Shown here one piece after another: positions 1 to 19,233 of a DNA stretch of 64,000 nucleotides. Source of the stretch: Rhodococcus ruber NBRC 15591 (GTDB taxonomy: Bacteria; Actinomycetota; Actinomycetes; Mycobacteriales; Mycobacteriaceae); NCBI RefSeq assembly GCF_001894945.1, contig NZ_BCXE01000023.1, positions 62,001-126,000 of the forward strand, given 5' to 3'. The position numbers were made by a program, and so were the translations under genes. Position 1 is the first letter of the stretch. Every line of letters starts with the position of its first letter. Below the pieces are notes generated by a model. The model saw only the letters and a program-made list of their open reading frames with translations. It did no database searches and was not told where the DNA came from.

Positions 1-92
1 TACGGCAACACATCTGGATGTCGGTGTACAACGAGGTCGCCGACGTCCAGGTTGCCGTGCCGGTGATTGATCAGAATGGGCACAGCGCATGA
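1..92 (+). CDS. 3' end of an upstream gene, possibly a condensation/PapA-type acyltransferase
   Basis: Reading from base 3, an open frame of 29 codons runs to a TGA at 90-92. That stop shares the ATGA overlap with the start of the MMPL gene, so the two are translationally coupled. The visible tail contains HIWMSVYNEV and VQVAVPVID, an alternating beta-strand pattern that vaguely resembles the last strands of condensation-type acyltransferases. PapA acyltransferases sit directly upstream of mmpL genes in mycobacterial lipid clusters, which makes this attractive, but 29 residues are too few to assign a family. The coding status is fairly secure because of the coupled overlap; the function is a guess. 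Confidence 0.5.
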   Translation, partial: RQHIWMSVYNEVADVQVAVPVIDQNGHSA

Positions 93-2335
93 TCCTTGGC
101 AGACTCGCCGAAGTGGCATGGCGTCTACCTCGCACCGTGGTCGGGGCGGCGATGCTGTTCCTCGTCGTCGCAGGTGTCTATGCAGCGCCGGCCGCAACCC
201 GGCTGCCGTCCGGTGGATACGATGTTCCGTCATCGGAATCAGCTCGGGCAGAACAGATTCTGGACGAAAGGTTCCGAACGGGTGGACTGCCGGTGGTGTT
301 CACGGTTACCGACCCTGCGGGAGCCGGCAGCGTGCGAGCGCGTGACGAATCCTCCATGATTGTTGCGGCACTGCAAGATTCGCCACACGCGGTCCAGATT
401 GCGTCGTACTGGACCGCACCCTCCCCGCTCGACCAGACCCTGCTGAGTGCGGACCGGAACACCGGGCTGGTCGTCGCACGAATCGCCGGCGACGATCGGG
501 AGGCACCGATCCGGGCGCACGAGATCGCGGCGTCCCTCGTCGGAACCCGCGACGGTGTGACCGTCACCGCCGGTGGTCAGGCCATCACGTACTACGAAGG
601 CACACAACAGTCCCGAAGTGATCTGATCCGGCTCGAGATCATTGCGGTACCGCTGACCTTCATCGCGCTGGTCTGGGTGTTCGGCAGTCTCGTCGCGGCG
701 CTGCTCCCGCTGCTCGTCGCGGCTATCGCTGTCGTCGGCACCGGTGCCTGCCTCTGGGCGCTGTACGCCGTCACCGACGTCTCGGTGTTCGCGGTGAACC
801 TGGCGACGGGCCTGTGCTTGGCTCTCGCGGTCGACTACACGCTGTTCATCGTCAACCGATTCCGTGAGGAACGGGATGCGGGGACCGACGCACACGCGGC
901 GCTGGTACGCACCATGCTGACGGCCGGCCGGACCGTGTTCTATTCGGCGCTGACCATGGCGGTGACCCTGGCGACGTTGCTGATCTTCGAACCGTATCTG
1001 CTTCGCTCCCTGGCATATGCCGGACTTGCGAGTGTCGGATTCGCGATGGCGGGTGCGCTGTGCGTCGCGCCGGCGCTGATCGTTCTCGCAGGAGATCGCA
1101 TCGACGCACTCGATGTGCGAAAGCCGCTGCGACGCTGGTTCCGTCGCGAAGCCGTGCCGATCCGCGCCGTCGAGGATTCGTTCTGGTACCGCACGTCGGC
1201 GGCGGTGATGCGACGACCGGTCGTCGTCCTGGTGACGCTCACGATCGCGCTGCTGACCCTCGCGTGGCCGTTCCAGGGTGTGCAGTTGGCGTATCCCGAC
1301 GACCGGGCGCTGCCGGAGTCGACGACTTCGCGGCAGACGGGCGACATTCTGCGAGCCGATTTCGCCCAGGACTTCGCCGGCTCGACCCCGATCGTTCTGA
1401 CCGGTGCAGTGACGACCGTGCCGCAGGTCGCGGACTACGCGAGGGAACTCTCGACAATCGACGGTGTCCTGTCGGTCAGCAGCCCCGGCGGGGTGTATGC
1501 GAAGGGCATGCAGATCAGCCCACTCCGAGTCGATTCGGCAATCTCCGGTGACAGCGCATACGTCACGGTCTCGACCACGAAGGACCCGTACTCGCAGGAG
1601 GGCAAAGAGCAGCTCGAACGGTTGCGCGAGGTCCGGTCGCCGGCACCCACACTCTTCGGCGGCCTCGCGCAGCGTGACCTCGACAACGTGCACGGCATCA
1701 CCGACCGCGTGCCCGTCGCAGTCGCGCTGATCGCTCTCGCGACGTTCGTGCTCATGTTCCTGATGACCGGCAGCGTGGTGCTTCCGGTCAAAGCGCTGGT
1801 CACCAACGCCCTCTCGCTCACAGCCGGATTCGGCGCCATGGTGTGGATCTTCCAGGACGGCAACCTCGGGGGTCTGGGTACCACCGCGACCGGACACGTC
1901 ACGGCGTTCGTTCCACCCCTGCTCGCTGCCATTGCCTATGCGCTCTCGATGGACTACGAGGTCTTCGTGTTGTCGCGCATCCGCGAGGAATGGCTGGCGA
2001 CCGGGAACAACCAGAGGTCGGTGTGTGCCGGCCTGGCGCGGACAGGTCGCATCGTCACGGCCGCCGCGGTCGTCATGACGGTGGTCTTCCTGGCGATCAC
2101 CGCCGGGGAGGTTTCGTTCATGCGCGGACTCGGCCTCGGACTGACCATCTGCGTGCTGGTGGACGCGTTCGTGGTGCGCACGTTCCTCGTCCCGGCCGTC
2201 ATGGCACTGACGGGCCGGTACAACTGGTGGGCGCCCGCGCCGCTGGCCCGATGGCACGCCAGACGCGGATTCCGCGAAGGGGAAGCGGTCCCGATCCCAG
2301 AACTACGAAAAGAGCAGTCGCTGTGGACAACCTGA
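89..2335 (+). CDS. MMPL/RND-family transporter
   Basis: A 748-residue inner-membrane transporter of the MMPL branch of the RND superfamily, which exports lipids or lipid-linked metabolites using the proton gradient. It has an N-terminal membrane helix at about residues 15-35, a periplasmic domain to about 175, a first helix bundle at about 180-335, a second periplasmic domain, and a second bundle at about 545-720. The Asp-Tyr pairs expected in helices 4 and 10 are present (ALAVDYTLFIVNRFREE near 249 and ALSMDYEVFVLSRIREE near 621); such pairs carry protons in mycobacterial MmpL3. It is shorter than the ~950-residue MmpL proteins. Being first among clustered tailoring enzymes, it probably exports the cluster product. 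The family is certain; the substrate is inferred. Confidence 0.93.
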   Translation: MILGRLAEVAWRLPRTVVGAAMLFLVVAGVYAAPAATRLPSGGYDVPSSESARAEQILDERFRTGGLPVVFTVTDPAGAGSVRARDESSMIVAALQDSPHAVQIASYWTAPSPLDQTLLSADRNTGLVVARIAGDDREAPIRAHEIAASLVGTRDGVTVTAGGQAITYYEGTQQSRSDLIRLEIIAVPLTFIALVWVFGSLVAALLPLLVAAIAVVGTGACLWALYAVTDVSVFAVNLATGLCLALAVDYTLFIVNRFREERDAGTDAHAALVRTMLTAGRTVFYSALTMAVTLATLLIFEPYLLRSLAYAGLASVGFAMAGALCVAPALIVLAGDRIDALDVRKPLRRWFRREAVPIRAVEDSFWYRTSAAVMRRPVVVLVTLTIALLTLAWPFQGVQLAYPDDRALPESTTSRQTGDILRADFAQDFAGSTPIVLTGAVTTVPQVADYARELSTIDGVLSVSSPGGVYAKGMQISPLRVDSAISGDSAYVTVSTTKDPYSQEGKEQLERLREVRSPAPTLFGGLAQRDLDNVHGITDRVPVAVALIALATFVLMFLMTGSVVLPVKALVTNALSLTAGFGAMVWIFQDGNLGGLGTTATGHVTAFVPPLLAAIAYALSMDYEVFVLSRIREEWLATGNNQRSVCAGLARTGRIVTAAAVVMTVVFLAITAGEVSFMRGLGLGLTICVLVDAFVVRTFLVPAVMALTGRYNWWAPAPLARWHARRGFREGEAVPIPELRKEQSLWTT

Positions 2336-2826
2336 ACAGATTCGAAACCGAGGCCACGCATGCGGTCGCGCGGGCCGAGTGGTTTCTCGCACTGGTGGTC
2401 GTCGTGGTGCTGGCCGTCGCCCATCTCGACGAGATCGACTGGGTGGCGTTCGTCGCGCTCTTTCTGATCATCGACATCATCGGCTACATTCCGGGCGCGA
2501 TCGCGTACCGGCGCAGCGCGGATCACGCGGTTGCGAAGGGCTACTATGTCGCCTACAACGTGATGCACAGCTTCCTCACGGCAGCCGCGATTGCGGCGGC
2601 ATGGTCGCTGATCTTCGGTCCGGAATGGGCGCTTCTCGCACTGCCGATCCATCTGTGCGGAGACCGAGCTCTGTTCGGAAACACCATGAAGCCGTTCGGA
2701 ATCTCGTTCGAACCGGTGAAGCATCCGGAGTTCGATGCCTTCGACCGTGCCTACCACCGCGTCGGTGTCCGCTCCGACGATTCCACGAACCACAGGGGGT
2801 TTCGACGTGCGCTTCCTCGCGCGTGA
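2323..2826 (+). CDS. Small four-helix membrane protein of unknown function
   Basis: A 167-residue protein that starts with GTG inside the last codons of the MMPL gene (13-base overlap). About four hydrophobic segments are visible: roughly residues 15-33, 38-60, 78-100 and 102-118, with a charged C-terminal tail of about 45 residues. I do not recognise the family. The overlap with the transporter and the next gene suggests an accessory subunit of the exporter or a membrane-bound cluster enzyme. The frame stays open far upstream of the GTG, but that part is antisense noise inside the MMPL gene and has no start signal. Confidence 0.7.
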   Translation: MDNLNRFETEATHAVARAEWFLALVVVVVLAVAHLDEIDWVAFVALFLIIDIIGYIPGAIAYRRSADHAVAKGYYVAYNVMHSFLTAAAIAAAWSLIFGPEWALLALPIHLCGDRALFGNTMKPFGISFEPVKHPEFDAFDRAYHRVGVRSDDSTNHRGFRRALPRA

Positions 2827-3937
2827 ACGTGCCGTACTCGAGCAGTTCCTGCCGGGACTCGACGACGCGCTGGCCGATGTCCCGCTCGCGGACCTCGAGG
2901 GCAGTGCGGCCCTCGGTATCCCGCTGCTGCGTGATGCCGGCGGAGCCGGACTCGTGATTCCGGTCGAATACAAGGGCAAGGGCGCGAATGCTCTCGATGC
3001 CGTCAGGATCCAGCGGGCACTGGGCTCGCGGTCGCCGTCCCTGGCCGTGGCGAGCACCATGCACCACTTCTCCGTGTCCAGCCTCGTGCTGCTCGCCGAG
3101 ACCGGGGGGAAGGAGTGGCTCGTCCTCGAAGCGATCTCCGCGAAGAACATGCTCGTCGCGTCCGGATTCGCGGAGGGCCGCCCCGACGGCCACATCCTCA
3201 CCCCGACCATGGACGCCACCGTGACGGCCGACGGGGTCCGGGTCAGCGGGACGAAACGACCGTGCAGTCTGGCGCGGTCCATGGACCTGCTCACGGCCAG
3301 TCTCCGGCTGCCCTCCCCGGACGGTCGCGGGGACCGGCTGGCCGTCGCCCTCATTCCCGCCGACGACCCGGGTGTGACGGTCGCTCCGTTCTGGTCCAGC
3401 TTCGCTCTCGCCGGCGCCGAGAGCGATCAGGTGACGATCGACGACGTCCTGGTGCCTGCGGATCTGGTGGTACTCACGGAGGTGACCGAGGACGGGCGGC
3501 TCGACGCCGTCCAGACCGCGGGTTTCGTGTGGTTCGAGCTGCTCATGGCCGCCTCGTACCTGGGTGCGGCCAGCGCACTGGTCGAGCGTGTGCTGTCGGT
3601 GGAACGATCCGCCGACGTCGAGCGGATGCAGCTCGTCTCGCGCACCGAGAGCGCGCACGCGGCGATCGAGAACATCGCCCGGCAGGTCCCGCACGCGCAG
3701 ACGGACGCGGGGCTCCTGGCCGACACCCTGTTGGTGCGGTACGCGGTACAGGACACGATCGCGTCGGTGGTACCCCGAGCGGTCGAACTGCTCGGTGGCA
3801 TGAATTTCATGACGTCGGACGACGTCGGATACCTCGCCGCGGCCGTCAACGGCCTCGGCTTCCACCCGCCGTCGCGCACGCGAATGGCGGGACCGCTGAC
3901 GCGCTATTTCGCGGGCAGCCCCCTCGAGATCGCATGA
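2807..3937 (+). CDS. Acyl-CoA dehydrogenase-family flavoprotein
   Basis: A protein of about 376 residues with an acyl-CoA dehydrogenase layout: helical N-terminal domain, a central beta domain (ATVTADGVRVSGTKRP, then PADDPGVTVAPFWSS) and a C-terminal helical bundle with LLGGMNFMTSDDVG. It probably introduces or removes a double bond on a thioester-bound chain, or acts as an acyl-ACP oxidase. I chose GTG 2807 because CAGGGGG lies about 8 bases upstream; ATG 2735 in the same frame would overlap the preceding gene by 92 bases. Its position next to a thioester reductase-like gene suggests an acyl intermediate held on a carrier or CoA. The exact substrate cannot be read from the sequence. Confidence 0.82.
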   Translation: MRFLARERAVLEQFLPGLDDALADVPLADLEGSAALGIPLLRDAGGAGLVIPVEYKGKGANALDAVRIQRALGSRSPSLAVASTMHHFSVSSLVLLAETGGKEWLVLEAISAKNMLVASGFAEGRPDGHILTPTMDATVTADGVRVSGTKRPCSLARSMDLLTASLRLPSPDGRGDRLAVALIPADDPGVTVAPFWSSFALAGAESDQVTIDDVLVPADLVVLTEVTEDGRLDAVQTAGFVWFELLMAASYLGAASALVERVLSVERSADVERMQLVSRTESAHAAIENIARQVPHAQTDAGLLADTLLVRYAVQDTIASVVPRAVELLGGMNFMTSDDVGYLAAAVNGLGFHPPSRTRMAGPLTRYFAGSPLEIA

Positions 3938-3947
3938 GGAGCGAAGA

Positions 3948-4988
3948 ATGACGTGGCGTAGAAAGACACTGTTGTTGACCGGCGGCTCCGGCGTCGTCGG
4001 ACGGGCACTGATCGACGAACTGTCGCACGACTTCGACGTGGTCTGCATGCGCAACCGCAACCCGGTCGACGACGTCCGGGTCAGCGAGTTCGCCGGGTCC
4101 TTCGCCGAACCGCGGCTCGGCCTGTCCGCCGGCGACTACGCCGTGCTGTCCCGCCGGGTGGATGTGATCGTGCACGCGGCGGCGGCAACCAGTTGGCGGG
4201 AGGACCCGCGACGGATTCGTGAGGTCAATCTCGGTGGCCCGACGGCATTGCTGGAGCTGGCGACGCAGGCATCGGCGCCGCTGTACTTCTTCAGTACCGC
4301 CTTCGTCGCGGATCCACCTTCGGCACAGGGACATTCGCCGGGAGCCGCGGCCTATGTGCAGTCCAAGATCGAAGCCGAGGCGCTCGTCCGGTCGCATGCC
4401 GTGCCGAGTGTGATCGTGCGGCCGTCGATCGTCATCGGTGATTCGGCGGACGGGCGGATGGCGGCGTTCCAGGGTCTGCACGCCGTGCTGGGAGCGATCG
4501 TGCGGGGCGCCGCACCGATGATCCCGATGCCGGCGAACGCTCTCATCGACTTCGTACCGCAGGACCTGGTTGCGGCCGTCATCGGCCGGCTCGTACGTCA
4601 GGAGGTCACCTCCGGCGAGTACTGGCTCACAGCCGGCGACCAGGCATTGTGTGCACGGCAGATCATGGACCTGTGCATGGGCCTGGCGGGTGACCTGGGT
4701 CTGTCGACGCGGGAACCGCGTCTCATCCCGACCGAAGCCGTGGACCGCCTGATCCTTCCGCTGCTGGAGGATTCGCTTCCGGCCCCGCTCCAGGCGAAGT
4801 TCCGCGATCTGCTCGAGTTCGCCTGGCTCTTCCAGAGCGCCGACCCGTTGCCGAACTCGCTGCCGGAACTGGGCTTCGCCGCGCAGGTCACCACGGAGGA
4901 GCTCCGGAAGACGGCCTACCTGTCGATGCGCTACTGGGCGCAGGTGAAGGGGCTCGTGGCCGGCGACGACGACGGGCGGGCGGCGTGA
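3948..4988 (+). CDS. NAD(P)-dependent reductase/epimerase, thioester-reductase-like
   Basis: A 346-residue extended short-chain dehydrogenase. The Rossmann nucleotide motif TGGSGVVG is at residues 11-18 and the catalytic YVQSKIEAEA (Y-x3-K) is near residues 135-144. VNLGGPTALLELA and the Thr/Ser-rich FFSTAFVAD strand match the NAD_binding_4 branch (thioester reductases and fatty acyl-CoA reductases) better than sugar epimerases. Such enzymes release a carrier- or CoA-bound acyl group as an aldehyde. The next gene is an aminotransferase that overlaps it by 4 bases, which would fit aldehyde-to-amine conversion. A role as a 3-beta-hydroxysteroid dehydrogenase-like enzyme cannot be excluded. Confidence 0.8.
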   Translation: MTWRRKTLLLTGGSGVVGRALIDELSHDFDVVCMRNRNPVDDVRVSEFAGSFAEPRLGLSAGDYAVLSRRVDVIVHAAAATSWREDPRRIREVNLGGPTALLELATQASAPLYFFSTAFVADPPSAQGHSPGAAAYVQSKIEAEALVRSHAVPSVIVRPSIVIGDSADGRMAAFQGLHAVLGAIVRGAAPMIPMPANALIDFVPQDLVAAVIGRLVRQEVTSGEYWLTAGDQALCARQIMDLCMGLAGDLGLSTREPRLIPTEAVDRLILPLLEDSLPAPLQAKFRDLLEFAWLFQSADPLPNSLPELGFAAQVTTEELRKTAYLSMRYWAQVKGLVAGDDDGRAA

Positions 4989-6226
4989 CCGCCTCGGGCG
5001 TCCGGACCGGGATCGAGGACCTCTGCCGTGCTCACCAGGGCAGCGGGCGGGCCGCTCTGGGCCGTCTGCTCGGGGGCATGGAGGAGATCGCGTCGGAGGG
5101 CGCCTGGGTCGTCGTCGCGGACGGTCGGCGCTTCCTGAACTTCGGCGGCCACGGGGTGTATCTGCTCGGGCACCGGCATCCGGAGGTGACGGCAGCGGTG
5201 CACCGGCAGATCGACACGCACCCGATGTCGACGCGCGTCTTCTTCGAACCCGCGGGCGTGCACGCGGCGGCGGCACTGTCCGCCGTCACGCCTGCGGGCC
5301 TGGACCTCGTGCACTTCGTCAACTCGGGCGCCGAGGCCACCGAGGCGGCGTTGAAGCTGGCGCGGGCACATGGCAAGACCGAGATCGTCACGACCGTCAA
5401 CGGCTTCCACGGCAAGACCCTGGGGGCACTGAGTGTCACCGCCCGCCCGGTCTTCCAGAGGCCGTTCGAGCCGCTGCTGCCGGGGGTGACCGCCGTGCGG
5501 TACGGGGACGCCGCCGAACTCGACGCCGCGCTCGCCCGGGTCGCGGGCCGGGGCGTCCTCATCGTCGAGCCGGTACAGGGTGAGGGAGGGGTGATCGTGC
5601 CCCCTCCCGGCTATCTCGCCGCCGCGGCCGATCTGTGCCGACAGCACGACGCGCTGTTGATCGTCGACGAGATCCAGACCGGTCTGGGGCGCTTGGGCAC
5701 GTGGTGGGGTATCGACGACGCTCGGATCGTTCCGGACATCATGCTCGTCGGTAAGGGACTCTCGGGCGGTGTCGTCCCGATCTCCGCGATGGTCGCCACA
5801 GCAGAGACGTATCAACCGTTCGCCAAGGACCCGTACCTGCATTCCTCGACCTTCGCGGCCTCGCCGATCGCGTGTGCGGCAGCCGCGGCGACGATCCGGG
5901 TCATGCGCGACGACGACATCGTCGGCAAGGCGGCGGATCTGGGCCGGCGCCTCGTCCACGCCGTCGGGAACGCCGTGGCGGCTCACTCCTCGGCGCACCG
6001 CATCGAGGTCCGCGGCCGCGGACTGCTGATCGGCATCGAGTTCGACGATCCTCGATCGGTCGGAGACCTGTACCTGAACCTCGTCGATCGCGGGGTTCTG
6101 GTCAACCACTCCCTGAATTCGCCGACAGTGCTACGTCTCACCCCGCCGGCCGTCCTTTCCGACGGTGAACTGGACTTCTTCCTGACCGCGTTCACCGACG
6201 CGCTGTCCGCTGCCTTTTTCGCCTGA
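4985..6226 (+). CDS. Class III PLP-dependent aminotransferase
   Basis: A 413-residue enzyme of the acetylornithine/ornithine aminotransferase fold. Visible signatures are the Gly-rich NSGAEATEAALKLAR, the conserved VDEIQTGLGRLG and the PLP-binding lysine in LVGKGLSGG (K257), followed by HSSTFAASPIACAAA. The start is GTG in a GTGA overlap with the reductase, so the two are likely made together. Class III enzymes commonly use ornithine, lysine or glutamate as amino donor and act on omega-amino groups or aldehydes. In this cluster it most plausibly aminates an aldehyde made by the neighbouring reductase. A housekeeping arginine-pathway role is unlikely because no arg genes are nearby. Confidence 0.9.
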   Translation: MTASGVRTGIEDLCRAHQGSGRAALGRLLGGMEEIASEGAWVVVADGRRFLNFGGHGVYLLGHRHPEVTAAVHRQIDTHPMSTRVFFEPAGVHAAAALSAVTPAGLDLVHFVNSGAEATEAALKLARAHGKTEIVTTVNGFHGKTLGALSVTARPVFQRPFEPLLPGVTAVRYGDAAELDAALARVAGRGVLIVEPVQGEGGVIVPPPGYLAAAADLCRQHDALLIVDEIQTGLGRLGTWWGIDDARIVPDIMLVGKGLSGGVVPISAMVATAETYQPFAKDPYLHSSTFAASPIACAAAAATIRVMRDDDIVGKAADLGRRLVHAVGNAVAAHSSAHRIEVRGRGLLIGIEFDDPRSVGDLYLNLVDRGVLVNHSLNSPTVLRLTPPAVLSDGELDFFLTAFTDALSAAFFA

Positions 6227-6249
6227 GCCCTACAGCAAGGAGAACCCCC

Positions 6250-6708
6250 ATGCGCAGTGTCACCATGTCGTTCGTCCTCCCCGGAATCGACCCGAGCGCC
6301 GCCTTCGACCGGATCGGCGACTTCGAGAGCTACCCCCGATTGACCGAGGCTGTGGTCGCGGTCGAGGTGGCCCCCGGGGACGCCGGCGAAGTCCGGTCCA
6401 GCTGGACCGTCAAGTTCCGCAAGGGGCTGCTGCGCTGGACCGAGCACGATGTGCTCGACCGCGACGCCGGAACGATCGCGTTCACGCAACTCGAAGGGGA
6501 CTTCGAGGTGTTCGACGGAACCTGGCGCATCGGCCGGACGGAAGACGGCGCGTCGGTGGTCTTCGACGCCCGGTTCGACCTGGGCATTCCGTCACTGGCC
6601 GACATTCTCGACCCGGTCGCCGAGGGTGCGCTGCGCGAGAACATCGCCCTCATCCTGTCCGGGTTGTTCGGCGAGATACGACAGCCGGCGCTGGCGGTCG
6701 ACGCGTGA
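6250..6708 (+). CDS. SRPBCC (polyketide cyclase/COQ10-like) protein
   Basis: A 152-residue single-domain protein with the SRPBCC/START pattern. It begins MSFVLPGIDPSAAFDRIGDF (residue 4 onward), has the typical SYPRLTEAVVAVEV segment near 35, then long antiparallel strands and a C-terminal helix. AAGGAG lies 8 bases before the ATG. Members include aromatases/cyclases in aromatic polyketide clusters and lipid-binding chaperones. Here it could cyclise an intermediate or ferry a hydrophobic intermediate between enzymes. I see no residue pattern that distinguishes these roles. Confidence 0.82.
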   Translation: MRSVTMSFVLPGIDPSAAFDRIGDFESYPRLTEAVVAVEVAPGDAGEVRSSWTVKFRKGLLRWTEHDVLDRDAGTIAFTQLEGDFEVFDGTWRIGRTEDGASVVFDARFDLGIPSLADILDPVAEGALRENIALILSGLFGEIRQPALAVDA

Positions 6709-7730
6709 CCACCACCCAGGACGCCGCGCAGCACCTCGCGCGGCGAGATGCGCTCGCCGTGCTGCGGGACTACGCCCGGAGTTCGTCCGCGTTCCTCGCA
6801 CTCAACGAGGGCAACCGGTACTTCACGGTGCCGGGTCGCACCGGGTTCGTCGCCTACCGGCCGGTCGGCCGACGTTACTGGATCCAGTTCACCGGTGCCG
6901 CCACCCCCGAGCACGATCGATCCGCCGTCGACCATGCCTTCGCCGAAGCGGCGAAGCGCGCCGGGAAACGGGTCGTGGCCGTGCAACTGGAGCGGTCCGA
7001 TGCCGAGCGCGCAGCCGCGAACGGATGGGTGGTCAATCAGTTCGGATCCTCGTACAGCATCGACCTCTCCGCATTCAGCCTGCGCGGCCGGAAGTTCGTC
7101 AAGACCCGCAACATGATCACCCGTTCGCGTCGTGAGGGGGTGACCGTGCGCGAGGCGACGCCGGAGCAGCTGACCGACCCCGCGTTCGCCACCCGACTGG
7201 ACCGGCTCGATGCCGCGTGGTTGCGGAACAAGGGGCGTCACGTCAAGGGACTCAGGCTGATGGTCGGGGAGCGCGGCGGCGAGGTCCAGGAGCAACGCCG
7301 GCTCTTCGTCGCCGAAGCCGCCGGCCGGATCGTCGCGTACATCTCCTACTCGCCCGTCTTCGGCGAGAAGGCCGGCTGGCTCTACGACTTGACGCGGCGA
7401 TCCCCGGACGCGCCACCCGGCGTTGTCGAGCACATCTTCGCCGAGGCGGCACAGGTGCTGCGCGAGGACGATGCGCCCTGGCTGCACCTGGGGCTCACAC
7501 CGTTCGTCGGCATCGACCCGGACGCTGCTCTTCCGGGTGCGTCCCGCATGCTGAGCACCGCAACAGGACTGATCGCGAAGCACGGTTCGGCCGTCTATCC
7601 GGCCGCGAGTCAGCTGGCCTTCAAGCTCAAATGGCGTCCCACCCTGGTGACGCCGGAGTACATCGCATTTCCCGGTCGTGTTCGCCTGCGAGACCTCTGG
7701 AGTCTCGCCCGGGCGACGAATTCGCTCTGA
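6705..7730 (+). CDS. DUF2156 / LPG-synthase C-terminal-like acyltransferase
   Basis: A 341-residue soluble protein resembling the C-terminal aminoacyl-transferase domain of MprF (DUF2156, tandem GNAT-like folds): NEGNRYFTVPGRTGFVAYRP near 33-52, the middle FVKTRNMITRSRREG, and the late GWLYDLTRRSPDAPPGVVE. In MprF this domain moves an amino acid from tRNA to a lipid. No flippase membrane domain is attached, so the protein is probably cytosolic and could acylate or aminoacylate the cluster product. It starts with GTG in a GTGA overlap with the SRPBCC gene. Family assignment is good; acyl donor and acceptor are unknown. Confidence 0.83.
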   Translation: MTTTQDAAQHLARRDALAVLRDYARSSSAFLALNEGNRYFTVPGRTGFVAYRPVGRRYWIQFTGAATPEHDRSAVDHAFAEAAKRAGKRVVAVQLERSDAERAAANGWVVNQFGSSYSIDLSAFSLRGRKFVKTRNMITRSRREGVTVREATPEQLTDPAFATRLDRLDAAWLRNKGRHVKGLRLMVGERGGEVQEQRRLFVAEAAGRIVAYISYSPVFGEKAGWLYDLTRRSPDAPPGVVEHIFAEAAQVLREDDAPWLHLGLTPFVGIDPDAALPGASRMLSTATGLIAKHGSAVYPAASQLAFKLKWRPTLVTPEYIAFPGRVRLRDLWSLARATNSL

Positions 7731-7741
7731 AAGGAGGAACA

Positions 7742-10554: not shown

Positions 10555-10555
10555 C

Positions 10556-12371: not shown

Positions 12372-12375
12372 GACG

Positions 12376-14166
12376 ATGCTGGAAATCAGTAGACCCGAGG
12401 TGGCCGACGACACCCGCACCTTCGACGTCGCCATCATCGGTGGCGGCATCGGCGGAACCGCGCTCGCGGCGATCCTCGCCCGCAACGGCGTCCGGGTCGT
12501 GATGATCGAAGCCGGCGGACACCCACGCTTCGCGATCGGGGAATCGACCGTGCCGGAGACGATCGTCGGGCTGCGGGTGCTGGCGCGTCGCTACGACGTC
12601 CCGGAGCTGGGATACCTGGCCGGGCACAACACACTTCGCCGGAAGGTCAGTGCCGCATCCGGTGTGAAACGCAATTTCGGATTCGCGTACCACCGCGAAG
12701 GAGAGCCGTTCGCGGCCGAGGAATGCACACAGCATCCGACGTGGAGCCCGCCCATCGGCCCGGATTCGCACTTCTTCCGGCAGGACGTCGACGCCTACAT
12801 GTTCCAGGTCGCGCTATCGTACGGTGCGACGGGTCTGACCTACACACCGGTCACCGCGGTCGACTTCGACTCCGACGGGGCGACCATCCGGACCGCGTCG
12901 AGCGGTGACTTCCGGGCCGGCTTCGTGGTGGACGCGGGAGGCATGCGCAGTCTGCTGGGCGAGCAGCTCGATCTGCGCATCGACCCGCCGTACCGGACCC
13001 GGTCCCGCACGATCTTCAACCACTTCGTGGGTGTCGAACCGTTCGACCGCGTGGCCCCGCCGCGCAAGCAGCATCTGATGCCGAGCCCGTTCTCCCAGGG
13101 AACGCTGCACCACCTGTTCGAGGGCGGGTGGGCGTGGGTTATCCCCTTCGACAACCACGTGGGCACCACCAGTCAACTGTGCAGTGTCGGAATCAATCTC
13201 GACATCGACGTGTATCCGAAACGAGACGGCGAGACGCCGGAGGAGGAGTTCTGGGCGCACGTCGATCGCTTTCCCACGATCCAGCGGCAGATGCGGGCGG
13301 CCAGGGCGGTGCGGCCGTACACGTCCTCGAACCGGAGCCAGTTCGCATCGAAGCAGATCGTCGGCGATCGCTGGGTCCTGCTCCCGCATGCCTCCGACTT
13401 CATCGATCCGCTGTTCTCCAGCGGTCTCGCGGTCACCATGATGATCCTGAACGCACTCGGTCACCGTCTGATCTCCGCCGTCCGGGAGGACGACTTCTCG
13501 GTGGAGCGGTTCGAGTACGTCCAGACCTGGACGAAGCGGTCGTTCCGGTACTACGACGATCTCGTCAGCTTCTCGTACACCTCCTGGGACCACTTCGACC
13601 TGTGGAATGCATGGCACCGGGTGTGGTGCCTGGCCACCATGTACGGCGCCAACGCGCAGATGCAGACCGTCATGGAGTACGAGAAGACCAGGGACAAGGC
13701 GGTGTTCGACCGGTTGGAGCAACCGCCCTACCGCGGGCTGCAGGCCGTCGACAATCCGCGGTTCGCTGCGATGTTCGATGCGGCGTGCGCGGCGATGCAG
13801 GCATACCGCGACAAGGAGATCGACGCGACCGAGGCCGGCCATCGCATCCACGTCGCGCTGAAGGAGAGCGAGCTGGTTCCGTCCGCGCGCTGGACCGGTT
13901 GGCGAGCGCTCGACCCGGACAATCGTCTGCCCACGGGTGAGTTCACGCTGTGGGACATGACCCGGCTTCTGTTGTGGGGCAAGTACGCCAGTCCGCCCCA
14001 CATCCGCGGAACCTACTTCACCAACGGATTCGCCGGAGTGGCGAAGGAAGCGGGCAAGTTGTATCTGTCGGAGCTGCGCCACGGCAGCGGGCTGAGCATG
14101 CAGGTGGCCCGCGACATGGTGTCGTATCGCAACCGGGACTGGCGTCGGGTCGGCGGACTCGACTAG
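12376..14166 (+). CDS. Flavin-dependent halogenase-like protein
   Basis: A 596-residue flavoprotein. FAD binding is VAIIGGGIGGTALAA (residues 18-32), followed by the halogenase-family GESTVPETI near 56 and, near residue 252, WAWVIP, an exact W-x-W-x-I-P, the hallmark used to tell flavin halogenases from monooxygenases. A conserved VLLPHASDFIDPLFSSG loop with the flavin contact lies near 336-352. Flavin halogenases use reduced FAD, O2 and halide to chlorinate or brominate activated carbons. A C-terminal extension of about 100 residues after FDLWNAWHRVW is helical. No partner flavin reductase is adjacent. The alternative is a non-halogenating member of the tryptophan-halogenase family. Confidence 0.78.
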   Translation: MLEISRPEVADDTRTFDVAIIGGGIGGTALAAILARNGVRVVMIEAGGHPRFAIGESTVPETIVGLRVLARRYDVPELGYLAGHNTLRRKVSAASGVKRNFGFAYHREGEPFAAEECTQHPTWSPPIGPDSHFFRQDVDAYMFQVALSYGATGLTYTPVTAVDFDSDGATIRTASSGDFRAGFVVDAGGMRSLLGEQLDLRIDPPYRTRSRTIFNHFVGVEPFDRVAPPRKQHLMPSPFSQGTLHHLFEGGWAWVIPFDNHVGTTSQLCSVGINLDIDVYPKRDGETPEEEFWAHVDRFPTIQRQMRAARAVRPYTSSNRSQFASKQIVGDRWVLLPHASDFIDPLFSSGLAVTMMILNALGHRLISAVREDDFSVERFEYVQTWTKRSFRYYDDLVSFSYTSWDHFDLWNAWHRVWCLATMYGANAQMQTVMEYEKTRDKAVFDRLEQPPYRGLQAVDNPRFAAMFDAACAAMQAYRDKEIDATEAGHRIHVALKESELVPSARWTGWRALDPDNRLPTGEFTLWDMTRLLLWGKYASPPHIRGTYFTNGFAGVAKEAGKLYLSELRHGSGLSMQVARDMVSYRNRDWRRVGGLD

Positions 14167-14175
14167 GCGACTCCG

Positions 14176-15519
14176 ATGACATTGGCACTCGACCTCACCG
14201 CGCCGCTGCCGGCGCACTGGTTGCTGGTGTTCCTGGTGCAGGTCACCGTGCTGTTGCTGGGTGCGCGGGTCCTCGGCGGCCTGGCGGTCAGGCTCGGCCT
14301 GCCCGCGCTTGCCGGGGAATTGCTGGCCGGAGTGCTGCTCGGTCCGTCCGTCCTGGCGCACGTTGCTCCCGGCGTGTGGGGGTGGCTGTTCCCTGCGGAG
14401 GGCGGGCAGGTCCACCTTCTCGACGCCGTCGGCCAGTTCGGCGTACTGCTGCTCGTCGGTCTGGCGGGAATGCACGTGGACGTCGGGCGTCTGCGACGAC
14501 TGGCCGGCCCGGCAGCCAAGATCAGCCTTGCCGGCCTGCTGATCCCCCTCGCACTCGGTGTCGGCATCGGTGCGATCGCGCCGCCCCCCATGCGCCCGGA
14601 GGGCACGAGCCCGGCAATCTTCGCGATGTTCGTCGGGGTGGCAATCTGCGTGACCGCAGTCCCGGTCATCGCCAAGGTGCTCATGGAACTCGGGCTGACC
14701 GACCGCAGGATCGGGCAGCTCGTCCTGTCCGCAGCGGTGATCGACGACGTCATCGCCTGGTTCCTGCTCTCGCTGGTGTCCGCGTTGGTGACGGCCGGGG
14801 CACTGGGGGTATCGGACGTGCTGGAGCCGGTCGGATGTCTCGCCGGTGTCGTGCTCTTCGCCGCGACGATCGGCAGGATGCTCGTGCGCCGCGCGGTGCG
14901 CCACGCCGAGGCGTCACGCGATTCGACTGCGATGGTGAGTACGGCGGTGATCCTCGTCCTCGGCGGTGCGGCGGCCACGCACGCCATGGGACTGGAGCCG
15001 ATCCTGGGCGCGTTCGTCGCCGGCGTCCTCATCGGCTCCGGCGGCGTGCGCGCGCCGGTCCTCGCACCCCTGCATGCGGTTGTCATGTCGGTCCTCGCCC
15101 CGCTGTTCTTCGCCACCGCTGGGCTCCGGATGGACCTGTCCGGTCTGCTCCGGCCCGGTGTCCTGCTGGCGACGGCCGGGCTCCTCGTCGTGGCCGTCGC
15201 CGGGAAGTTTGCCGGTGCGTTCGTCGGCGGCAGACTCAGCGGTCTCGACCGCGCGGAATGTATCGCCCTGGGGGCCGGGATGAACGCACGCGGTGTGGTG
15301 GAGGTGATCATCGCCACCGTCGGCCTGAGCCTGGGGGTGCTCGGCACCGAGGCGTACACGGCCCTGGTCCTGGTCGCCGTCGTCACGTCCGTCATGGCCC
15401 CGCCCATCCTGCGCCGCGCCGTCGGCCGCTCCGACCGCGCTGCCGCGGAGGAACCCGGCGCGCGACCCGCCGAGTCCCGGTCCGGGGCCGGCACCGTCTC
15501 ACTCGAGGAACCACGATGA
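14176..15519 (+). CDS. CPA2-family cation/proton antiporter (Kef-like)
   Basis: A 447-residue integral membrane protein with about 12 helices between residues 15 and 415. Family motifs include LAGELLAGVLLGPSVLA (32-48), FGVLLLVGLAGMHVD, the ion-site region LSAAVIDDVIAWFLLS (two adjacent Asp, near 195) and [19 protein letters not shown] near 370. It lacks the C-terminal TrkA-N domain of full KefB/C. It exchanges H+ for K+ or Na+. Antiporters of this type occur in some antibiotic clusters as accessory transporters. It begins 9 bases after the halogenase stop and overlaps the P450 start by ATGA, so it is part of the operon. Confidence 0.9.
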   Translation: MTLALDLTAPLPAHWLLVFLVQVTVLLLGARVLGGLAVRLGLPALAGELLAGVLLGPSVLAHVAPGVWGWLFPAEGGQVHLLDAVGQFGVLLLVGLAGMHVDVGRLRRLAGPAAKISLAGLLIPLALGVGIGAIAPPPMRPEGTSPAIFAMFVGVAICVTAVPVIAKVLMELGLTDRRIGQLVLSAAVIDDVIAWFLLSLVSALVTAGALGVSDVLEPVGCLAGVVLFAATIGRMLVRRAVRHAEASRDSTAMVSTAVILVLGGAAATHAMGLEPILGAFVAGVLIGSGGVRAPVLAPLHAVVMSVLAPLFFATAGLRMDLSGLLRPGVLLATAGLLVVAVAGKFAGAFVGGRLSGLDRAECIALGAGMNARGVVEVIIATVGLSLGVLGTEAYTALVLVAVVTSVMAPPILRRAVGRSDRAAAEEPGARPAESRSGAGTVSLEEPR

Positions 15520-16868
15520 CCCTGTCCCGATCCGAAACCTCGCATCCCCCGACATCGCTGCCGCCCGGCCCGAGGTTGCCCGCCGTGGTCCAGACCCTGC
15601 TGTTCACGCTGGCGCGGCATCGCATCTATCCCGTGCTGACGCGGCGCTACGGCGACACCTTCCTGATCGAGCCCACCGCGCCGTACCGGCCCATGGTGGT
15701 GCTCGGACGGCAGGAGGACATCCGGACGGTCTTCGCCGGCAGCCCCGAGATCTACCATGCCGGCGAGGGCAACGCCATCATGCGCCCGGTCATGGGCGAG
15801 CACGCCGTGCTGGTCACCGACGAGGACCGGCACAAGCGGGTCCGGCGGCTGCTCACGCCCGCGTTCAGTGCTCGGGCGCTGCAGGGCTACCGCGACGACG
15901 TGACCACGCTGGTCCGGCACGAGGTCGCGCACTGGCCCGTGGACCGCCCCTTCGCCACATTGGAGCGGCTGCAGGACCTCATGCTGGAAGTCATCCTCAC
16001 CGTCGTGCTGGGTGTCACCGCGCCCGACCGCCTCGCCGAGTTGCGACCCGCGATCCGGCACATCACGGAGATCGACCCGATCACGTTGATGGGACTGCAC
16101 AGCCCGAAGCTTGCGCGGATCCGGCCCTGGAGCACGCACTGGAAGCATCAGCGCAGATTCGACGAGATCGTCTACGCCGAGATCTCCGAACGTCGGGTCG
16201 CGGGCGACCTGCACGACCGAACCGACGTGCTCTCCCGGCTGGTGCAGGCCGCGGTGGACGACGCAGACGGTGGGCTCGGCGATGCAGAACTGCGTGATCA
16301 GCTCATCTCCATTCTCCTGGCCGGTCACGACACCACGGCCACGGGGCTGGCATGGGCCTTCCACGAACTGGTCCGCAACCCCGGCGTACTGGCAGACGCG
16401 CAGAAGGCGGCGGACGCGGGGGACGACGAGTATCTCGGCGCGGTGGCCAAGGAGGCGCTGCGCCTCAAGCCGGTGATCCAGGATGTGGCCCGCCAGCTCA
16501 CCGCACCCGTGGAACTGGGCGGATACCGGTTGCCCGCGGGCATCACCGTGCTCCCCGCGATCGGCATCGTTCACGCCGACCCCGAGCATCACGAATCACC
16601 GGGCGAGTTCCGGCCGGAGCGGTTCCTGGGCGTCCAGCCCGCGGCGAACACCTGGATTCCGTTCGGCGGCGGTGCACGCCGGTGTCCGGGTGCCGCGTTC
16701 GCGGCCATGGAGATGACGGTCGTCCTGCGGGAGGTGTTGCGCGCCTACGATCTCAGCCCGCCCGGCCGGCGTCCGGAGAAGCAGAAGGCACGCAACATCA
16801 CGACCGTTCCGTCGCGGGGAGCTCGCGTAGTGGCCCGGCGACGCACCACGAAGGCGGTGACGCTGTGA
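15516..16868 (+). CDS. Cytochrome P450
   Basis: A 450-residue P450 with all hallmark motifs: the oxygen-activating I-helix AGHDTTATG, the K-helix KEALRLKP (E-x-x-R), the PERF segment, and the heme-ligand loop FGGGARRCPG with Cys390. The N-terminus lacks a membrane anchor, as in bacterial P450s, and begins with a Pro-rich PPTSLPPGPRLP similar to the class including CYP110 and CYP138. It needs a ferredoxin and reductase, neither of which is encoded nearby. It probably oxidises a hydrophobic chain or ring of the cluster product. It is translationally coupled on both sides (ATGA upstream, GTGA downstream). Confidence 0.95.
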   Translation: MTLSRSETSHPPTSLPPGPRLPAVVQTLLFTLARHRIYPVLTRRYGDTFLIEPTAPYRPMVVLGRQEDIRTVFAGSPEIYHAGEGNAIMRPVMGEHAVLVTDEDRHKRVRRLLTPAFSARALQGYRDDVTTLVRHEVAHWPVDRPFATLERLQDLMLEVILTVVLGVTAPDRLAELRPAIRHITEIDPITLMGLHSPKLARIRPWSTHWKHQRRFDEIVYAEISERRVAGDLHDRTDVLSRLVQAAVDDADGGLGDAELRDQLISILLAGHDTTATGLAWAFHELVRNPGVLADAQKAADAGDDEYLGAVAKEALRLKPVIQDVARQLTAPVELGGYRLPAGITVLPAIGIVHADPEHHESPGEFRPERFLGVQPAANTWIPFGGGARRCPGAAFAAMEMTVVLREVLRAYDLSPPGRRPEKQKARNITTVPSRGARVVARRRTTKAVTL

Positions 16869-17710
16869 GCCCGACCGTGTTCATGGGAAAGACCTGTGTG
16901 GTCACCGGTGCCGGGTCCGGAATCGGCCGCGCACTCGCGGAGAACCTGGCCGGTCGGGGTGCGCGACTCGCTCTCTCCGACATCGACGGCAGCACTCTGG
17001 CCGAGACTGCGCGCCGATGCGAATCCCACGGTGCCTACGTGTCGACGGCACTTCTCGACGTGTCCGATCGAGACGCCGTCTCGCGGTACGCCGAGGAGGT
17101 GGTGGCGGAGTTCGGCATCGTGCACCAGGTGTACAACAACGCGGGCATCGCCTACTTCGGCAGTGTCCTGGAGTCGGACTTCGCCGACATGGAACGCGTC
17201 CTGGCGGTGGACTACTGGGGCGTCGTACACGGGACGAAGGCGTTCCTGCCGCACCTCGTCGCGTCGGGCGACGGTCACGTCGTCAACATCTCGAGCCTTT
17301 TCGGCTTGCTCTCGCTGGGCGGGCAGAGCGCGTACAACTCGGCGAAGTTCGCCGTCCGAGGGTTCACCGAAGCGCTGCGCCAGGAGATGATCGCCGAACG
17401 GCTTCCGGTCCGGGTCACGTGCGTGCATCCGGGTGGGATCAGGACTGCGGTGGCACGCAACGCGACGACGGCTCGGGGGATCGACGCGGCGTCGGTCGCG
17501 GAGATCTTCGATCGGCGGCTGGCGTTCCATTCACCGGAGATGGCGGCCCGGGCCATCGTCGCCGGGGTGCGACGTCGCAGGGCGCGCGTGGTGATCGGCT
17601 GGGAGGCGAAGGGGCTCGACATGTTTCAGCGGGTGACCGGAGCGGGGTATCAGCGGGTACTGGCCGTGACCAATCCGTTCACCGTCGCAGCGGATCGGAA
17701 CCGGAAATGA
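16865..17710 (+). CDS. Short-chain dehydrogenase/reductase (SDR)
   Basis: A 281-residue classical SDR. It has the cofactor motif TGAGSGIGRALA (residues 13-24), NNAGIAYFG, the catalytic Ser in NISSLFG and the catalytic YNSAKFAVRG (Y-x3-K). The acidic residue in ALSDIDG after strand 2 favours NAD(H) over NADP(H). It interconverts an alcohol and a ketone. Being between a P450 and a Baeyer-Villiger-type monooxygenase, it could oxidise the P450-made alcohol to the ketone that the next enzyme would use. It starts at GTG in a GTGA overlap. The substrate is inferred from order only. Confidence 0.92.
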   Translation: MSPTVFMGKTCVVTGAGSGIGRALAENLAGRGARLALSDIDGSTLAETARRCESHGAYVSTALLDVSDRDAVSRYAEEVVAEFGIVHQVYNNAGIAYFGSVLESDFADMERVLAVDYWGVVHGTKAFLPHLVASGDGHVVNISSLFGLLSLGGQSAYNSAKFAVRGFTEALRQEMIAERLPVRVTCVHPGGIRTAVARNATTARGIDAASVAEIFDRRLAFHSPEMAARAIVAGVRRRRARVVIGWEAKGLDMFQRVTGAGYQRVLAVTNPFTVAADRNRK

Positions 17711-19233
17711 CCGAGCACTTCGATGTCGTCATCGTGGGGGCCGGGCTGTCCGGTATCGGCGCCGCCTGTCGTCTCGGGCGGGAACTTCCGGACAAGACGT
17801 TCGCGATCTTCGAGGCACGCGCGTGCCTCGGTGGCACCTGGAGTCTGTTCACCTATCCGGGGGTCCGATCCGACTCCGACATGTTCACCCTGAGTTACCC
17901 GTTCAAGCCGTGGCGCGGCGCGGACGCGATCGCCGGCCGGCAGGCGATTCTGGACTATCTCGAGGAGGCCGCGGCGGAGGGCGGCATCGCCGGCAGGATC
18001 CGGTACAACAGCCGTGTCGTCGAGGCGTCGTGGGATTCGGCCCGCTCGCGGTGGAGTCTCACCGTCGAACAGCGGGTCGGCCCGGACGAGACGGCCCGCC
18101 GCACCGTGACGTGTGCGTTCCTCTACGCCTGTGCCGGGTACTACGACTACGAACGCGCGTACACCCCCGATTTCGAGGGCATCGAGTCGTTCACCGGAAC
18201 GGTGGTCCATCCGCAGTTCTGGCCCGGGGAACTGGACTACACGGGCCGACGCGTCGTGATCATCGGGAGCGGAGCCACGGCCATCACCTTGGCGCCGTCG
18301 ATGGCGGAGCGCGCCGAGCACGTGACGATGCTGCAGCGCTCACCGACGTGGGTGTTCCCGCTGCCGCGCCGGGACATCGCTGCGGACTGGGCGCGGGCGG
18401 TGCTGCCGCCGCTCGCAGCCCATCGGTTGGTGCGTGCGAAGAACATCGCCTTCACCGGCTCGCTGTACTGGTTCTGTCGACGGTATCCGCGGGCCGCACG
18501 GTCGCTGCTGACCCGTCTGGTCACCCGCTCCCTGCGGGATCGGGACACCGTCGCCGAGCACTTCACCCCCACCTATGCGCCGTGGGATCAGCGGCTGTGT
18601 GCCGTCGTGGACGAGGATTTGTTCACCGCGATCCGGCACGGCACGGTCACGATGGTGACCGACCACGTCGACCGGTTCGTCCCCGCGGGGATTCGTCTGC
18701 GGTCGGGGCGTGTCCTCGAAGCCGATATCGTCGTCACCGCAACCGGATTGCAGATGCAGGTGTTCGGCGGCATCGACTTCGTCGTGGACGGCCGGCCGGT
18801 GACGATGTCCGACGAGTTCCTCTGGCAGGGCACGATGGTGACCGGGGTGCCGAATTTCGCGGCGGGGATCGGATATGCGAATGCGTCGTGGACGTTGCGC
18901 GCGGATCTCAACGCACGCGTGATGTGCAGGGTGCTGAGCCATATCGACCGCAACGGGCAGGTGCCGGTGGTGCCGCGCCGGGAGGAGACGCTGGCGGCGC
19001 GTCCCTTCCTGGACCTGTCGTCGGGGTACATCTGCCGGTCGGTCGATCGGTTTCCGCGTCACGGAGATCGAGATCCCTGGCGGGCCAGGAACTATGTGCG
19101 CGACGCTCTCACCCTTCGGCGCACGTCGCTGCGGGGGTCACTCGTGCCGTTCGGGTCCACGGGAGCATCTCGTCGACGCGAAGACGTTCCGGGACAGAAT
19201 GTTTCGTCGTCCGCCCGGACCAGACTTGTGTAG
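17707..19233 (+). CDS. Flavin-containing (Baeyer-Villiger-type) monooxygenase
   Basis: A 508-residue class B flavoprotein monooxygenase related to EthA. FAD binding is VVIVGAGLSGIG (residues 7-18), the Baeyer-Villiger fingerprint F-x-G-x3-H-x3-W-P is present as FTGTVVHPQFWP near residue 162, and the second nucleotide site is VVIIGSGATAITLAP. These enzymes insert oxygen next to a ketone or oxidise N/S atoms using NADPH. As the last gene of the overlapping series, it would act on a ketone produced by the coupled SDR. The stop lies 28 bases before the MFS gene, where a separate promoter is possible. Confidence 0.92.
   Translation: MTEHFDVVIVGAGLSGIGAACRLGRELPDKTFAIFEARACLGGTWSLFTYPGVRSDSDMFTLSYPFKPWRGADAIAGRQAILDYLEEAAAEGGIAGRIRYNSRVVEASWDSARSRWSLTVEQRVGPDETARRTVTCAFLYACAGYYDYERAYTPDFEGIESFTGTVVHPQFWPGELDYTGRRVVIIGSGATAITLAPSMAERAEHVTMLQRSPTWVFPLPRRDIAADWARAVLPPLAAHRLVRAKNIAFTGSLYWFCRRYPRAARSLLTRLVTRSLRDRDTVAEHFTPTYAPWDQRLCAVVDEDLFTAIRHGTVTMVTDHVDRFVPAGIRLRSGRVLEADIVVTATGLQMQVFGGIDFVVDGRPVTMSDEFLWQGTMVTGVPNFAAGIGYANASWTLRADLNARVMCRVLSHIDRNGQVPVVPRREETLAARPFLDLSSGYICRSVDRFPRHGDRDPWRARNYVRDALTLRRTSLRGSLVPFGSTGASRRREDVPGQNVSSSARTRLV

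Follow-up and report, generated by a model that had tools for sequence, protein, structure and literature searches.

An accessory gene cluster of Rhodococcus ruber, very probably for a fatty N-N-bonded molecule, carries a DAO-family oxidase and no VlmB

Rhodococcus ruber NBRC 15591 carries an accessory gene cluster of 22 kb whose product, judging from its genes, is very probably a fatty molecule containing a nitrogen-nitrogen (N-N) bond. A DAO-family flavin adenine dinucleotide (FAD) oxidase is present in the cluster, and VlmB, the diiron enzyme that gives the azoxy group in known pathways, is absent. The cluster lies at the left end of the window, by which we mean the whole stretch of 64,000 nucleotides analyzed here (contig NZ_BCXE01000023.1, positions 62,001 to 126,000; C23:62001-126000 of the 5.33-Mb draft genome, G000); all genes described are on the + strand, and coordinates are those of the window unless a locus or contig is named. 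We read this island as a VlmO-type fatty N-N pathway with a flavoenzyme branch, at a probability of roughly 60%. The reading draws on gene content, on active-site residues, on the mutual exclusion of the two oxidases, and on the empty insertion site in congeners, from which every reaction and the product are predicted.

The key gene of the cluster encodes a small membrane protein of 167 residues (2323-2826, GTG start). This protein carries D51, H82, H110, and D114 at numbering identical to that of VlmO, the hydrazine-forming enzyme of valanimycin biosynthesis, in which the four residues are reported to be essential (PMC11705231). All four were invariant in the first 16 VlmO sequences that we aligned, and then in 145 of 145 loci aligned. 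Pfam returned a weak DUF4260 match alone (E=0.008), and weak DUF4260 homology is also described for Ady6, the VlmO homologue of azodyrecin biosynthesis (PMC9379638). The 2323-2826 product is a predicted iron-dependent N-N bond-forming enzyme; among the literature matches listed, only PMC11705231 and PMC9379638 concern VlmO in the enzyme sense.

The genes that adjoin VlmO complete the predicted core. The next one encodes a predicted VlmH-like flavin N-hydroxylase with an ACAD fold (2807-3937; the longest open reading frame (ORF) runs from 2735, and we place the start near 2807), whose closest solved sequences are DszC monooxygenases, followed by the FAD-dependent oxidoreductase 3m9v; proximity to DszC is as expected of a VlmH-type enzyme. 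A predicted VlmA-like aminoacyl-tRNA-dependent transferase (6705-7730; LPG_synthase_C, PF09924, E=2.9e-55) matches LpiA and MprF relatives in the PDB, and the LpiA/MprF family served as the model for VlmA in PMC9379638. The VlmH-like and VlmA-like identities were assigned by fold family and neighbourhood. Between these two genes lie (i) a thioester-reductase-like fatty-acyl reductase, predicted to form an aldehyde (3948-4988; PF07993, E=1.6e-33), (ii) a class III aminotransferase, the predicted source of the alkyl amine (4985-6226; PF00202, E=1.8e-89), and (iii) a conserved accessory protein resembling SRPBCC proteins and polyketide cyclases (6250-6708; PF03364), the first two of which correspond to the proposed roles of Ady2 and Ady4 (PMC9379638). 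Near VlmO in the 99 distinct loci of the discovery set described below, we found the VlmH homologue in 93, the SRPBCC protein in 87, the aminotransferase in 86, and VlmA in 85. The aldehyde step is represented by a thioester-reductase-like gene in 24 of these loci and by an ALDH-family gene in 56 (both, 0; neither, 19), a split that amounts to one change on the core tree. Because the VlmH-like, VlmA-like, acyl reductase, and aminotransferase genes adjoin VlmO, the operon appears to encode the valanimycin/azodyrecin route to an N-alkyl-hydrazino acid, and this assignment of the N-N core is well supported.

In the pathway that we propose, the acyl reductase and the aminotransferase would convert a fatty acyl thioester to an alkyl amine, which the VlmH-like enzyme, together with a flavin reductase encoded elsewhere in the genome, would oxidize to an N-hydroxylamine. 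The VlmA-like enzyme would add an amino acid from an aminoacyl-tRNA, and rearrangement of the ester by VlmO would give an N-alkyl-hydrazino acid, the compound that VlmB next oxidizes to azo and azoxy in known pathways. Here, and in related clusters that have DAO and lack VlmB, the DAO oxidase would act on the hydrazine, most likely at a C-N bond, to give a hydrazone that may hydrolyze to a free hydrazine. The halogenase-like enzyme, the P450, a short-chain dehydrogenase (SDR), the FMO-like enzyme, and the hydrolases would tailor the product, with MMPL and MFS proteins as its likely exporters.

The DAO-family oxidase, our proposed branch-point enzyme in place of VlmB, is encoded next to the VlmA-like gene (7742-9142; PF01266, E=1.8e-57). 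Its structural model (mean predicted local distance difference test, or pLDDT, 79; predicted template modelling score, or pTM, 0.83) lies nearest to glycine oxidase, L-amino acid deaminase, sarcosine oxidase, L-proline dehydrogenase, and N-methyltryptophan oxidase. Such amino-acid oxidases act on C-N bonds, and several of them take amino acids substituted at nitrogen; the predicted VlmO product, an N-alkyl-hydrazino acid, is an N-substituted amino acid like several of those substrates. The DAO homologues Spb39 and Apy10, which provide the analogy for the proposed step, are reported to cleave hydrazine intermediates at C-N bonds; Apy10 cuts at the alpha carbon, releasing pyruvate, and Tri27 is placed in the same family (PMC11705231). 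We likened the window DAO to Spb39 and Apy10 by family, and on this analogy its product is most likely a hydrazone or a hydrazine rather than an azoxide.

VlmB was recognized in a relative through the PDB entry 6d9f, 'Putative VlmB homolog' (E=5.8e-99). With one query for the genome, VlmB had no match in the window cluster or anywhere in G000, and a VlmB encoded elsewhere in the genome was rejected on that result. Given that the search for VlmB found none, we do not class the island among the azoxy clusters. Among the first 15 relatives, VlmB was present in 11 and a DAO-family oxidase in the other four, as in the window. Relatives of the window VlmO were then taken as the best 80 of 233 matches, those nearest to the window's own, and the discovery set of 110 loci, less 11 duplicates, gave 99 loci distinct by VlmO, which were searched with one DAO and two VlmB queries: 59 held VlmB only, 31 DAO only, none both, and nine neither. 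For replication, 60 loci were drawn from the family of G841, the draw leaving out five places already included and one split match (G1148); 14 loci already seen were removed, and seven DAO and two VlmB queries were used. The 46 new loci divided into 25 with VlmB only, 15 with DAO only, none with both, and six with neither, and one further new locus (the second of G1217) had VlmB and no DAO (26/15/0/6 of 47). Four loci scored as having neither enzyme were reassigned to DAO, which lies just outside the fetched stretch: in L077, L080, and L096 it is ∼0.4-1.5 kb beyond the end, judged by coordinates, and in L215, from the replication set, it was found in the flanks. Combined, the 146 distinct VlmO loci comprise 85 with VlmB, 50 with DAO, none with both, and 11 with neither.

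Of the remaining loci with neither enzyme, L049, L051, and L058 in the discovery set are cut by contig ends, and L145, L148, and L157 showed neither VlmB nor DAO; in the replication set, neither was found in the fetched sequence of L184, L218, L220, and L225, and L191 lies near a contig start. VlmB was absent from 22 of the 23 searched genomes that have VlmB-less VlmO loci, the one exception being Streptomyces violens, whose VlmB belongs to a second VlmO locus (L092). This species (L053, L092) and G841 (L151, L155) each hold one DAO-type and one VlmB-type cluster, so the exclusion acts per cluster and not per genome. At the clustering threshold used, DAO was the sole family found in most DAO-type loci (27/34) and in no VlmB-type locus (0/59), families being counted from five such loci upward. 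As side observations, the VlmO homologue L148:10002-10514 (G511) stands alone, the sequence fetched around it giving no match to VlmH, VlmA, VlmB, or DAO. A congener (L033, G004) and a family member (L144, G504) have a divergent VlmO cluster that includes MMPL and DAO genes of its own, with no SRPBCC, thioester-reductase, or ALDH match.

We built the core tree from concatenated core proteins of the 85 loci, out of 99, in which VlmA had a match. On this tree the VlmB and DAO types need six changes, and all of the independent pairs (6/6) go opposite ways (two-sided p=0.031). The exchange is seen on thioester-reductase and ALDH backbones alike; it is recurrent, yet its formal support is modest. 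The DAO tree sets all cluster DAOs apart from seven paralogues (six genomes) by a branch with support of 98, on which we rejected the idea that cluster DAOs are random amine-utilization paralogues; several of these paralogues adjoin genes that, judged by eye, read as ABC-transporter or aldehyde dehydrogenase genes. Three cluster-linked DAOs (L164-L166) were labelled 'other' in this tree, which yielded a printed count of two changes, and its root and some long branches are weak. Because the window DAO is sister to the L149 DAO (support 99), whose core groups with that of L124 on the other backbone (support 97), DAO genes seem to move between cores.

Several observations weigh against our reading of the DAO branch. 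The island contains no VlmR flavin reductase, although Flavin_Reduct matches elsewhere in the genome number 12. Eleven of the 146 loci have neither oxidase in the fetched sequence, and the genomes of the intact-looking L145 and L157 show no VlmB and no such DAO, so neither enzyme is strictly required. Keeping the rows with neither enzyme gives p values of 0.0625-0.125 in the paired test, four changes remain without eight long rows, and the tree program warned of long branches joining, L124 and L149 among them. Furthermore, a methyltransferase family is present in 13/34 DAO loci; its L050 member belongs to PF04072, the family of Ady1, which methylates the product carboxylate in azodyrecin biosynthesis. 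A second family, represented in L050 by a WS/DGAT-like acyltransferase, likewise occurs in 13/34 DAO loci. Both speak against complete cleavage, with loss of the whole amino-acid part, in at least one group. DAO itself may also act at another step.

Mutual exclusion with repeated exchange on an otherwise constant core is the pattern expected if DAO were a plain substitute for VlmB, oxidizing the hydrazine to an azo compound to which another flavoprotein adds oxygen, with an azoxide still as the product, and several flavin oxygenases do adjoin DAO in the window. We consider this unlikely, since the nearest folds are those of amino-acid oxidases that act on C-N bonds and the known DAO homologues acting on hydrazines cleave such bonds (PMC11705231). 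Moreover, in compact Streptomyces DAO loci (e.g., L050), where part of the flanking genes are annotated, no further oxygenase was recognized from VlmO to the acyltransferase that follows DAO. Somewhat less probable still is a DAO that acts elsewhere, for example on the amine or in late tailoring, with the exclusion merely marking two ecological or chemical subfamilies of cluster. Other genes do follow the split, relatives of the window P450 being found in 12/34 DAO-type and 0/59 VlmB-type loci; against this stand the position of DAO as the sole family specific to most DAO-type loci and the presence of the exchange on both backbones.

The composition of the operon bears on two further explanations. 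The N-N core (89-9142) and the oxidative genes that follow (9139-19233) could be two unrelated neighbours, the second of them a lipid-modifying operon, since sets of P450, SDR, FMO, and hydrolase genes occur alone in actinobacteria, as in the mymA operon of mycobacteria. We hold this to be improbable: the genes form an unbroken run of overlapping or nearly touching frames, the whole segment is missing jointly from the site in G001, G004, and G017, and relatives from both halves recur together, namely DAO with the halogenase-like and antiporter genes (L124, L149) and FAD_binding_3 and one alpha/beta hydrolase relative near DAO (L153). The initial annotation had noted the lack of a core synthase and placed the core upstream, making the operon the tailoring part of a polyketide synthase (PKS), nonribosomal peptide synthetase (NRPS), or PapA cluster. 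Exporters and tailoring genes suit such clusters in general, yet the upstream search that it proposed yielded no PKS, NRPS, or other synthase in the 19 scanned of 21 ORFs picked in the nearest 20 kb, the adjoining upstream flank is common to congeners without the island, and Pfam found no PKS or NRPS among the island proteins. Coverage of the following 20 kb upstream (L007) was confined to reading its ORFs. The core is instead the VlmH/VlmA/VlmO set inside the operon, and an upstream synthase is now very hard to credit. We retain the VlmO-type pathway with a DAO branch directed at the C-N bond. Taken further, the DAO-type VlmO clusters (50/146) might form a second outlet of tRNA-dependent N-N biosynthesis, one that yields lipid hydrazines or hydrazones, the outlets having been swapped repeatedly on one core; we advance this tentatively, at slightly less than even odds.

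The route up to the hydrazine is already of a known kind. The closest described system, azodyrecin (ady; Streptomyces RM72, A1C6; PMC9379638), shares with the island an acyl-derived aldehyde, a pyridoxal phosphate-dependent transaminase, VlmH-like and VlmA-like enzymes, a VlmO homologue, and the absence of an aminoacyl-tRNA synthetase from the cluster. However, ady has VlmB (Ady8), VlmR (Ady10), a desaturase, and a methyltransferase, none of which is found in the island, whereas the island has DAO, halogenase-like, P450, SDR, FMO, hydrolase, and antiporter genes. Valanimycin (vlm) follows the same VlmH/VlmA/VlmO logic, with the four VlmO residues identical, but differs in taking its amine from valine and in having a seryl-tRNA synthetase of its own as well as VlmB and VlmJ/VlmK. 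In the s56-p1 and actinopyridazinone pathways (Spb38-40, Apy9-11), a hydroxylamine and an amino acid are joined to a hydrazine that then meets a DAO-family FAD oxidase, as we propose for the island; there the hydrazine synthetase is a cupin/methionyl-tRNA synthetase protein, of which Pfam found no match among the island proteins, whereas the island would use the VlmO membrane protein, with the amino acid predicted to come from tRNA. Also among the closest systems are the uncharacterized clusters L124 (Nocardia pseudobrasiliensis) and L149 (G550, from the window's family), which share the halogenase-like protein (59-68%), the antiporter (56-63%), the MMPL protein (56%), and a DAO, but have an ALDH gene instead of the thioester-reductase-like one; relatives of FAD_binding_3, alpha/beta hydrolase, SDR, and FMO genes were not seen in the stretch covered.

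Streptomyces atratus is a source of hydrazidomycin. We do not claim hydrazides of the hydrazidomycin/geralcin type as the product: the available part of PMC6344404 gives no gene cluster for them, and the locus of S. atratus JCM 3386 (L072) is VlmB-type. The strain NRRL-16927 of this species is listed for elaiomycins, which are azoxides (PMC11705231), and we count this, beside the VlmB-type locus, in favor of our main reading.

The initial annotation had described the cluster as unrecognized, which no longer applies to clusters of VlmH/VlmA type, since these have been genome-mined, with 179 VlmA/VlmH pairs in 3,146 actinobacterial genomes, VlmB/O/R called highly conserved, and Trp-halogenase-like genes near some of the pairs (PMC9379638). 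The description does hold for the type with DAO in place of VlmB: we found no account of this split in the literature searched, the scope of which ended short of subscription papers and the supplement of PMC9379638. That study calls VlmB highly conserved around VlmA, whereas 50 of the 146 VlmO loci here carry DAO and no VlmB. Few natural products contain an N-N bond, and few of the enzymes that form such bonds have been characterized. If VlmO feeds two alternative oxidases, the presence of VlmB or DAO would predict an azoxide or something else, a rule usable by genome miners; if true, the branch would also offer a possible route to alkylhydrazines and would point to a class of lipid hydrazines or hydrazones overlooked by searches for azoxides.

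The island as a whole spans ∼G000:C23:60121-82792 (22.67 kb), of which 1-20792 falls inside the window (a region with no strand assigned), its right edge being at ∼20792. The upstream flank of the site in G001 (C135:58517-60949) lies 663 bp from the downstream one (61613-64687), whereas their G000 equivalents are 22.67 kb apart. The site is also contiguous in G017 (gap of 97 bp) and G004 (gap of 782 bp), where the downstream match begins further on, past the second MFS gene. The cluster has a G+C content of ∼68%, against 71% for the remainder of the window. A VlmO match was found in 2/18 genomes of the genus, 8/401 of the family, 16/397 of the order, and 8/394 of the class, with the genome of the window among those counted at every rank; of the genomes drawn from the family of G841, 61/394 had one. 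Because VlmO is rare in the genus and the site is empty in three congeners, the cluster is accessory, and a housekeeping locus was rejected on the same two observations. This agrees with the earlier view of a specialized biosynthetic cluster with amine-forming and oxidative enzymes. As a separate observation on distribution, VlmO, VlmA, VlmH, and DAO relatives lie together in a betaproteobacterium, Paraburkholderia phenoliruptrix HU18 (L091:10001-13994); the other 79 of the best 80 of 233 VlmO relatives bear actinobacterial names.

Within the inserted segment, a GDSL esterase and a TetR gene left of the window (L006:18112-19691) are followed by the genes from MMPL to MFS. Sixteen co-directional genes occupy 89-19233, and the MFS gene (19262-20695) makes the seventeenth, in agreement with the annotated count of about seventeen; adjacent predicted genes overlap or lie within 28 bases of one another. 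Four-base ATGA/GTGA overlaps do exist, numbering five, or six if the SDR gene starts at the GTG at 16865, rather than the seven first given. The families originally named were all confirmed by Pfam (MMPL, NAD_binding_4, class III aminotransferase, SRPBCC, LPG_synthase_C (DUF2156), DAO, FAD_binding_3, Trp_halogenase, P450, SDR, and FMO-like), whereas five genes had gone unnamed: the key membrane gene at 2323-2826, the ACAD-fold gene, the two alpha/beta hydrolase genes, and the antiporter gene.

The MMPL-family exporter that opens the run (89-2335, 748 amino acids; PF03176, E=3.4e-77) has MMPL counterparts in 14 of the 99 distinct VlmO loci. After DAO comes an FAD_binding_3 oxygenase/reductase-like flavoprotein (9139-10554; PF01494, E=3.9e-22), with relatives near DAO in L153 and L037. 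Two alpha/beta hydrolases (PF00561) follow: the first (10556-11461, with the start placed by us) lacks the G-x-S-x-G motif, and the second (11451-12371) is a tandem relative that aligns with it end to end. These tandem hydrolases (10556-12371), directly before the halogenase-like gene, carry N-D-T-G-G or N-D-G-G at the G-x-S-x-G position, which we take to resemble Asp-nucleophile dehalogenases and epoxide hydrolases.

The Trp-halogenase-like flavoprotein (12376-14166; PF04820, E=1.5e-16) has a GGGIGG start (GxGxxG), WAWVIP (WxWxIP), and a Lys in a KRNF segment that is invariant in the three sequences aligned; we take GxGxxG, WxWxIP, and the catalytic Lys to be motifs of FAD-dependent halogenases. 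From these motifs, halogenation by the island is possible, if unproven. In all three loci where it was seen, the Na+/H+ exchanger-family antiporter gene directly follows the halogenase-like gene (window 14176-15519, PF00999, E=6.2e-50; L149:14076-15443; L124:15239-16591), and self-protection against a reactive product is one guess at its role.

Further downstream are a cytochrome P450 (15516-16868; PF00067, E=2.2e-58), with the heme motif FGGGARRCPG; the SDR (16865-17710, with a GTG start predicted; PF00106, E=4.8e-47), with TGAGSGIG and YNSAK and 61% identity to an SDR of L073; and an FMO/Baeyer-Villiger-like monooxygenase (17707-19233; PF00743, E=2.5e-11), with FTGTVVHPQFW, an F-x-G-x-x-x-H-x-x-x-W motif. 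Together with the hydrolases, these enzymes could oxidize and cut the alkyl chain. The MFS transporter (PF07690) is the last gene of the inserted segment and falls within the part missing from the G001 site.

On the other side of the window edge, the GDSL esterase (L006:18112-18969) recurs, as relatives, in eight further VlmO loci, VlmB-type and DAO-type alike. Outside the island, ∼15-20 kb upstream of the window, L006:2-5461 encodes a BTAD-domain regulator, a DUF1990 protein, and an ABM-domain protein, and the nearest scanned upstream ORFs outside the island are common to congeners without it.

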